The notes beneath the pieces were generated by a model that was given only the letters and a program-made list of their open reading frames with translations, searched no databases and was not told where the DNA came from. This document shows, in pieces, positions 8,173 to 37,983 of a stretch of 64,000 nucleotides of DNA. Position 1 is the first letter of the stretch, and every line of letters starts with the position of its first letter. The stretch covers positions 1-64,000 of the forward strand of contig JAKAVO010000005.1 in the NCBI GenBank assembly GCA_021817255.1, read 5' to 3'. Position numbers and translations under genes: made by a program. The stretch comes from Thermoplasmata archaeon. GTDB lineage: Archaea; Thermoplasmatota; Thermoplasmata; Thermoplasmatales; Thermoplasmataceae.

Positions 8173-9441
8173 ATGGATAAAATAATCAATAAAAATGAAA
8201 AAGGTATGATTGCAACTTTAATGCTTCTTTCTTTATTTGTGGATCAATGGAACGTTTTCGTAGTTCCTATGTCAAATTTCTTCATAAGAGATACATTCAT
8301 TAAGACAAGTCTGTTGTTTGGGCTTGCCAGTGGCGCCATAATTGGTGGTGCAGCTGTAGGCTCCCTTTTCGGTGGAGCGCTGTCAGACAGGATCGGGAGG
8401 AAAAAGATATTTATCATGAACATGGTTATATTCATTCTTGCCGACCTCGGTTCTGCAATATCTTCAACACCCGGCATGTTTATCATTTTCAGATTTATAG
8501 CAGGAATCGCAGTAGGTTCCGACCTGGCTAATTGCTATTGCTTTATTATGGATATAATAGGTACAGGAGACAGGGAAGTTACTGGAGCTAAAAATACGCT
8601 TATGGCAAGTTTTGCCATCGTCGTTATTAATTTAATGATACTCTTTTTCCTTCTTGGAAGAATAGATTACAGCAATGTTTGGAGGCTTGCAATGGGAATT
8701 TCAGCCATTCCGGCAGTCATTGCACTTGTAGCTTCAAGAAAACTGAAGGAAAGTTATCTATGGGGTAAATCCACAAAGAGAAGTGGTGGTTACTTTGGCT
8801 TTATTAAAAAATTGAGAGAAGATGACATCAGGTGGAGGGCGACAAGTTTCAGCTGGATCTCAGGCATAGTGAGTTCGGTTGAAGTGGGAACATTTGCATT
8901 CTTTATACCACTTTTGATATCCAACTTCAGAATTTCCAGCCTCCTGGATCAGAGATACCTGATTATCTTTATCTATTCATTTGGTTTGCCAGCTGGCTTC
9001 CTTGGGCCGAAGTTTCTTCCAAAAATTGGCCTGAGAAGCCTGAGCATTTATGGGTATGCGATCACATTGATCTCCCTCATTGGCTCCGGTATCTTCATTT
9101 TAACGGGATATTACCTCATAGTCCCGTTTTTCATGATATTATTTGTATGGGGAAACCACTGGAACAATCAACCTATACTTACATCACAATCCCTCATTTC
9201 TGATCCAGAGTACAGAGGCAGTGCTACAGGGTTCTCGAATTTTATAGCCGAGGTCCCCACATTTCTCTCAATTACCATTTTCCCCGTGCTTGCAAGCACC
9301 ATAGGGCCAGGCATTTCAACCATAATGTTGGCGATTGCCCCTGCAATAGGCCTTACTGTTTCCCTGATTATATTCAGGGAGGTATATGGATATGATAAGA
9401 ATACAAAGATTGCTGGAAATGTTCTCGGCGAAAATGCGTGA
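8173..9441 (+). CDS. Major facilitator superfamily transporter
   Basis: 422 aa multi-TM; GGALSDRIGRKKIF loop motif; FRFIAGIAVGSDLANCY. Confidence 0.85.
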   Translation: MDKIINKNEKGMIATLMLLSLFVDQWNVFVVPMSNFFIRDTFIKTSLLFGLASGAIIGGAAVGSLFGGALSDRIGRKKIFIMNMVIFILADLGSAISSTPGMFIIFRFIAGIAVGSDLANCYCFIMDIIGTGDREVTGAKNTLMASFAIVVINLMILFFLLGRIDYSNVWRLAMGISAIPAVIALVASRKLKESYLWGKSTKRSGGYFGFIKKLREDDIRWRATSFSWISGIVSSVEVGTFAFFIPLLISNFRISSLLDQRYLIIFIYSFGLPAGFLGPKFLPKIGLRSLSIYGYAITLISLIGSGIFILTGYYLIVPFFMILFVWGNHWNNQPILTSQSLISDPEYRGSATGFSNFIAEVPTFLSITIFPVLASTIGPGISTIMLAIAPAIGLTVSLIIFREVYGYDKNTKIAGNVLGENA

Positions 9442-36840: not shown

Positions 36841-37765
36841 TTGGTAGAGTTGCCAGAAAAACCATATCCGTTGAAGCCCGAGGCCAGGCCTATACTGAAA
36901 TGGGCCGGTGGGAAACGCCAGATAATGAAATGCCTAATTTCTAATGTTCCTGGCAGATTTGGATTGTATTATGAACCGTTTGTCGGTGGTGGTGCCCTGA
37001 TGACTTCACTTTATAACCTTGGTTTGCTCAAACGGAGAGTGGTTTCCGACATTAACCAGGATCTCGTTGGGTTATACAAAATAGTGAAAAGAAAACCAGC
37101 AGAACTGGCAGAAGAAGTGCTTTCATTAAAATTCAGGAATAACAGGAGTGATTATTACACGGTACGGAATGAATACAATTCCATGGACGGCAAATTTGAT
37201 GTTGGGAAGGGATCTCTCTTCCTTTATCTGAACAGACACTGCTATAATGGCCTGTATAGGGTGAATTCCAGTGGTGAGTTTAATGTTCCATTTGGAAAGT
37301 ATAGAAATCCAGGTTTGCCCACAGCCAGTGATATTATGCTATTTTCACAGGCACTGAAAAATATCGAAATTAAAGGCACAGATTTTGGGGATGCTGTGAA
37401 AAATTCATCAGAAGGGGATTTTGTTTACGATCCTCTAAGCAGAAAGCCCACAAGCTTTAGCTGTGGGAGGATGTCAGTTTGATCCACCTTATATGCCTTT
37501 CAGCCCATCAGCAAATTTTACAGAGTATAATTCATCAGATTTTAAAGAAGCTGAACAGAAGAGGCTCTTCAGGGTTTTCAATGATTTGTCGGAAAGAAAA
37601 GTTAGGGTTATGGAGAGCAACTCAGACACAGATTTTGTCAAAGAAATATATTGCTTTTTCAATATAATTAAAATAAGCGCCAGAAGAGCTATAAATTCGA
37701 AAGATAGCGGCCGAAGCAGCATAACTGAGTTGCTCATTAAAAATTGCCCAAATAATCCTTGCTAA
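36841..37765 (+). pseudogene. dam: Dam-family DNA adenine methylase interrupted at DPPY motif
   Basis: N-terminal part PILKWAGGKRQIMKCLISNVPGRFGLYYEPFVGGGALMTSLYNLG; second part in another frame QFDPPYMPFSPSANFTEYNSSDF...ARRAINSKDSGRSSITELLIKN. Excising 49 nt restores GDFVYFDPPYMPFS. Confidence 0.88.
37429..37477 (+). mobile_element. 49-nt remnant or mini-element resembling an IS200/IS605-family right end
   Basis: GATCCTCTAAGCAGAAAGCCCACAAGCTTTAGCTGTGGGAGGATGTCAG with hairpin CCCAC-a-AGCT-tt-AGCT-GTGGG, placed immediately 3' of TTTAC. Confidence 0.7.
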
Positions 37766-37908: not shown

Positions 37909-37983
37909 TGGGGCCAACCGGATTTGAACCGGTGACCTCCCGGTTATCAGCCGGGTGCTCAAACCATGCTAAGCTATGACCCC
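37909..37983 (-). tRNA. tRNA-Ile(GAT)
   Basis: Reverse strand GGGGTCATAGCTTAGCATGGTTTGAGCACCCGGCTGATAACCGGGAGGTCACCGGTTCAAATCCGGTTGGCCCCA; anticodon GAT; CCA not encoded. Confidence 0.95.

Follow-up and report, generated by a model that had tools for sequence, protein, structure and literature searches.

The window analysed here, the whole 64,000-nt stretch at the start of one contig of a Thermoplasmata archaeon genome (G000; the genomes compared with it are numbered G0xx and G1xx), carries a gene for a D12-class Dam methylase which, according to its ORFs and Pfam matches, is split by 49 nt at 37429–37477. The frame of the 5′ half stays open across the insert until the stop codon at 37480–37482, giving an ORF (36841–37482) that terminates ...GDFVYDPLSRKPTSFSCGRMSV*, and FDPPYMPFS is picked up by the downstream ORF. 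Joining the flanks without the insert yields GDFVYFDPPYMPFS in frame and a product of 291 aa, and the two halves cover the Pfam MethyltransfD12 profile end to end, without gap or overlap. This confirms the claim of a preliminary description of the sequence that two dam ORFs are offset by the insert and that its removal restores the frame. The features of the locus are as follows:

36841–37428, + strand: 5′ part of dam (ORF), D12-class N6-adenine methylase up to GDFVY; PF02086 profile positions 1–180
37425–37428, + strand: TTAC target and left cleavage site, kept to the left of the element
37429–37477, + strand: 49-nt putative non-autonomous IS200/IS605-type element (terminal-only PATE)
37429–37442, + strand: left-end segment of 14 nt, GATCCTCTAAGCAG, alignable with the corresponding end of the parent IS and of the 222-nt elements described below
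37443–37446, + strand: left-type guide tetranucleotide AAAG, which pairs with TTAC by the IS608 rule (PMC5934647)
37447–37467, + strand: single subterminal hairpin CCCACAAGCTTTAGCTGTGGG with a loop of the right-end type (DNA fold −5.2 kcal/mol)
37468–37477, + strand: right-end tail AGGATGTCAG, with the right cleavage site TCAG at 37474–37477
37478–37765, + strand: 3′ part of dam (ORF), from FDPPY to the stop codon; PF02086 profile positions 181–253; joining the flanks completes the 291-aa frame
37909–37983, minus strand: tRNA-Ile (GAT), ~145 nt beyond the end of dam

The insertion point lies just before the DPPY catalytic motif, and a frameshift results. Relatives of dam are present in 63 of 77 genomes of the same archaeal family, and the motif is unbroken, within the ungapped frame GDFVYFDPPY, in all 28 of the orthologues inspected. 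An in-frame natural insertion, which the preliminary description had named as a possible refutation, was ruled out on this comparison, as the orthologues lack the insert and its 49 nt are not divisible by three. The closest relatives are just 52–57 % identical, and the date of the insertion is therefore not readable from them; no frame lesion other than the 49-nt insert was detected in dam, suggesting that the event was recent. A second Dam-like methylase (G000:C42:9893–10495, 40 % identity, 322-aa open frame) is intact and may stand in for the broken gene.

The boundaries of the insert cannot be slid either way (preceding base C vs last base G; first base G vs following base T), so the insert comprises exactly 49 nt without target duplication, and TTAC is kept in the left flank, as expected of the insertion 3′ of TTAC that had been proposed. 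The earlier description of the insert as an IS200/IS605-like right-end footprint was correct as to the family but not as to its being a right end alone, since its first ~22 nt represent a left end from this element family and the insert consists of left and right ends fused. It holds one hairpin, whereas the parent IS and the 222-nt elements hold two, and at 49 nt it has no coding capacity for a transposase, the core being deleted. The 71-nt region around the insert folds unremarkably overall (z −1.4); structure alone is therefore weak evidence, and the case rests on recurring copies. As a separate observation, ATCCTC near the left end (37429–37435) is complementary to GAGGAT in the right tail (37466–37472), and in the fold the two can pair as an additional stem enclosing the hairpin; this pair is absent from the parent left ends.

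The right-end core of the insert recurs elsewhere in G000. The end of contig C51 and the start of contig C50 overlap by 127 identical bases, from which we infer, as the simple solution, that they form one IS200/IS605 element. Joined in this way, the parent IS measures 1541 nt, lies directly after TTAC and encodes a Y1 transposase, TnpA (PF01797, E value 2e-39), overlapping TnpB (PF07282). Its left end reads GATCTATTGAGCAG-AAAG-CCCATGACTTCAGTCGTGGG-ATGAATGCG and its right end GAAC-CCCACATGCTTTAGCTGTGGG-AGTATGTCAG. The dam insert corresponds to the start of the parent left end (14 nt, AAAG, CCCA) followed by the remainder of the right hairpin and the tail; its hairpin differs from that of the parent right end by one base. 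The same genome contains two 222-nt two-hairpin derivatives with ends as in the parent, both behind TTAC (length counted to TCA):

C11, from 109124 (109124–109346)
C51, from 8445, reverse strand (8223–8445)

Two-hairpin non-coding elements of 222–225 nt with similar ends were also seen across genera (G000, G048, G085 and G113). Neither tnpA nor tnpB returned a match on the contig of the window, in keeping with the reported lack of both genes near the insert, the parent IS lying on C51/C50. The resident tnpA (G000:C51, L030 1447–1869) encodes an HUH motif reading PDQVH, with Gln replacing the first His; homologues in G052, G049, G060 and G106 read PDHVH or PDHIH. Judged by this substitution, the resident TnpA may be catalytically impaired or inactive, and a TnpA from another source is possible. 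We also observed that most TTAC-family left ends start with GATC, a Dam-type site, at the cleavage point and that the present copy sits inside a dam gene, a hint only, as the search pattern itself favoured G-TC.

We searched 117 genomes of the order for further copies of the insert, using the reversed pattern as a control. A 48-nt core of the insert was found at two unrelated sites in the congener G051, with 0 and 1 mismatch; the coordinates of the first match GenBank contig JAKAWY010000056.1 (Thermoplasmata archaeon YP4.bin8), and both copies are preceded by TTTAC and end in TCAG. A diverged 49-nt copy follows ATTAC in a third species (G049), and a degenerate copy follows TTAC in another genus (G073). 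TTAC thus precedes these four other single-hairpin copies, the parent IS and both 222-nt elements alike. Chance is excluded, since a 33-nt core of the insert is unique in the window (0 expected), the 48-nt core recurs and the reversed control gave zero matches in the 117 genomes. The 49-nt pattern was without match in viral contigs. Among the left ends listed, the variant GATCCTCTAAG is confined to three close 49-nt copies, which points to one lineage that would have spread in the short form. No empty site for a G051 copy was found among congeners: the searches matched only the element, besides a stretch of 65 % identity in G055, from the flank of one copy, that stops short of the insertion site. 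The preliminary description had called for a search of the genome and its relatives and had left open whether the insert was a relic or a small non-autonomous element mobilised in trans; the copies at other TTAC sites favour the latter and speak against a one-off relic.

A second single-hairpin family, with a TTAA target, emerged among the loci retrieved by the right-end pattern. Its members are built as TTAA / CATTTGTGAGCGAG-AAAT-CCCACACCCTTTAGGGGTGGG-AGGATGTCAC (14+4+21+10 = 49 nt) and end in TCAC, a few copies being shorter or longer by one base or more. We flagged 14 copies in nine species at ~13 loci, two of the copies occupying one orthologous locus. Site A in G107 is filled, with exactly 49 nt inserted after TTTAA, and is empty in G104, G108 and G105. 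Site B in G107 is likewise filled and is empty in G104, G108 and G106, the empty sites reading TTTTAG and the filled site TTTTAA, a difference of one base. At a third G107 site, G104 carries a longer, unrelated sequence, and a fourth is common to G104 and G107, indicating just common descent. No two-hairpin element with the left end of this family (≤3 mismatches) was found in G107 or in the single-contig genome G104; G107 does contain an intact gene for a Y1 transposase, adjacent to a left end that starts in a related way but has a different hairpin. Presence–absence polymorphism is thus demonstrated for the TTAA sister family only, and the TTAC family is documented at several genomic sites.

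IS608 recognises its left site TTAC through base pairing with the guide AAAG, and its right site TCAA through the guide GAAT (PMC5934647). The pairs stated there are A16:T-3 and A17:T-4; a third, between position 4 of the guide and position 4 of the site, is our own reading of the scheme. We tabulated guides for 63 right ends anchored on the hairpin stem, the rows including related copies and not representing independent events. Complementarity at position 4 occurred in 55 of them, where 5000 shuffles averaged 24 and never exceeded 39, and all three pairs were present in 49/63 (GAAG/TCAC, GAAC/TCAG and GAAT/TCAA), which supports the view that the collected right ends work by the IS608 scheme. 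The right-end core GCTTTAGCTGTGGGAGGATGTCA also occurs in Endozoicomonas, Salinisphaera, Poribacteria and Nitrososphaerota records (L016–L022, L011–L015), the Endozoicomonas and Salinisphaera copies having the guide GAAT and the site TCAA; this right-end form is widespread in unrelated bacteria and archaea.

The short forms depart from this arrangement. Copies of the 49-nt TTAC family pair AAAG with TTAC at all three positions. In the ten tabulated 49-nt copies, the sole guide is of the left type; pairing with the left site is complete in nine of them, and at the right site every copy forms just one of the three pairs. The IS608 scheme therefore does not account for excision of the short form, as the AAAG of the insert makes one of three pairs with its right site TCAG. 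This leaves three options: cleavage of the right end may proceed guideless, a guide may be borrowed in trans, or the 49-nt forms may have ceased to move.

We propose that the insert is a 49-nt non-autonomous IS200/IS605-type terminal-only PATE, inserted by TnpA acting in trans and thereby breaking dam, a reading to which we assign a probability of about two-thirds. Fusion of the two ends of a tnpA/tnpB element via their similar hairpin feet, AGCAGAAAGCCCA and AGCAGGAACCCCA, would have given an element retaining the left cleavage context (TTAC, 14 nt, AAAG), one hairpin and a right tail ending in TCAG. TnpA supplied in trans would then have inserted the single-stranded element 3′ of the TTAC in dam without target duplication, frameshifting the gene just before the DPPY motif. 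The ends of the insert, its parent IS in the same genome, the copies at other TTAC sites and the empty sites of the sister family were observed directly, while TnpA is presumably the enzyme. That the short form is itself mobile we consider about as probable as the proposal as a whole, since the left variant specific to it spans species and sites, since recent presence and absence are seen at two sites without two-hairpin copies, and since the left guide is retained in every copy. More tentatively, and at somewhat less than even odds, single-hairpin elements with only a left guide may move as 49-nt units, their right end being cut guideless or with a guide in trans, and may have arisen at least twice in the family. 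The altered HUH motif of the resident TnpA, the misfit of the guide at the right site, the fact that the species has yielded no empty or two-hairpin allele of the dam copy and the known deletion of cores in place in Haloquadratum all count against the proposal.

The last of these points underlies the main competing explanation, namely that a full-length or 222-nt element inserted first at the TTAC of dam and then lost its core between the hairpin feet, through recombination or replication slippage that left 49 nt, the short form being immobile. The left and right ends do have common feet (AGCAG-AA--CCCA), the left and right hairpins of the TTAA family may share an identical 21 nt, loss of the core between palindromes, down to 52 bp, has been observed directly in Haloquadratum, and the single guide misfits the right site. 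However, collapse in place requires an insertion and an identical deletion at every site, with the left guide always kept; three copies in two species carry a left variant absent from the two-hairpin elements found, and G107 has undergone at least two recent 49-nt insertions while containing no two-hairpin copy with that left end. On balance, we regard this route as clearly less likely than insertion of the short form by TnpA.

An assembly artefact, or a chance hairpin in an otherwise intact dam, might be suspected in a draft genome of 54 contigs and 78 % completeness, but the exact ends, target and length recur at other loci and in other genomes, and the copies differ by one base and so are not a misplaced duplicate of another contig, making this explanation very improbable. 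Least credible of all is the earlier suggestion of a TnpB omega RNA whose 3′ portion comes from the right end and whose guide is dam sequence; the insertion would then have a regulatory or targeting function. TnpB right ends are known to yield omega RNAs (PMC8612924), and the tail is identical to the right end downstream of tnpB in G000, but no more than the final ~30 nt of a right end survive in the insert, the tnpB-proximal scaffold is missing and there is no tnpB on the contig of the window.

In each feature tested, the insert fits the terminal-only PATE kind and is not categorically new. PATEs and their ‘terminal-only’ 52-bp versions were described in Haloquadratum walsbyi (HqIRS46 and ISHwa23 derivatives) by Dyall-Smith and colleagues, in whose account the 52-bp forms arise by repeat-mediated deletion between near-terminal palindromes, and six strain-specific 52-bp copies suggest that such elements may be mobilised (PMC3119063). 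Both sets consist of fused IS605-type ends of ~50 bp with one near-terminal palindrome, are non-coding, lack inverted terminal repeats and target duplication, and include some insertions, strain-specific in Haloquadratum, known solely in the short form. The present elements differ in belonging to another archaeal class, in forming two separate families of 49 nt, in having a parent with tnpA and tnpB in the same orientation and in the documentation of guide and cleavage sequences and of empty sites in sister species. We found no description of such elements in this archaeal order in the literature, of which our coverage was partial. Terminal-only PATEs are thus extended from haloarchaea to another archaeal group, where two families share one length, guides and cleavage sites are defined and some sites are empty in sister species. 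They are very small insertional mutagens; here, 49 nt suffice to put a DNA methylase gene out of frame.

The PATE-like element of Halanaerobium hydrogeniformans (~271 nt; PMC7290912) is likewise an ends-only IS605 derivative without tnpA, but keeps both ends, its counterparts here being the 222-nt elements rather than the 49-nt form. REP/REPIN sequences with TnpA-REP (RAYT) (PMC8266576, PMC3116915) are also short hairpins with a 5′ tetranucleotide and a link to a Y1 transposase; they differ in being present in hundreds of copies, mostly intergenic and paired, whereas the 49-nt element occurs in few copies, is an insert with sharp boundaries and a cleavage site at each end, and has a parent carrying tnpA and tnpB. 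IS608 of Helicobacter pylori (PMC5934647) shares insertion 3′ of TTAC, AAAG 5′ of the hairpin foot, the absence of target duplication and a right site TCAN with a compensating guide. Its guide lies at +16 to +19 compared with +15 to +18 here, and it has two hairpins and two guides where the 49-nt form has one hairpin and the left guide. A guide that fits one end only makes these elements a natural case for asking whether TnpA depends on a second hairpin and a second guide, and one-guide mobility, if true, would depart from the two-hairpin, two-guide IS608 model.
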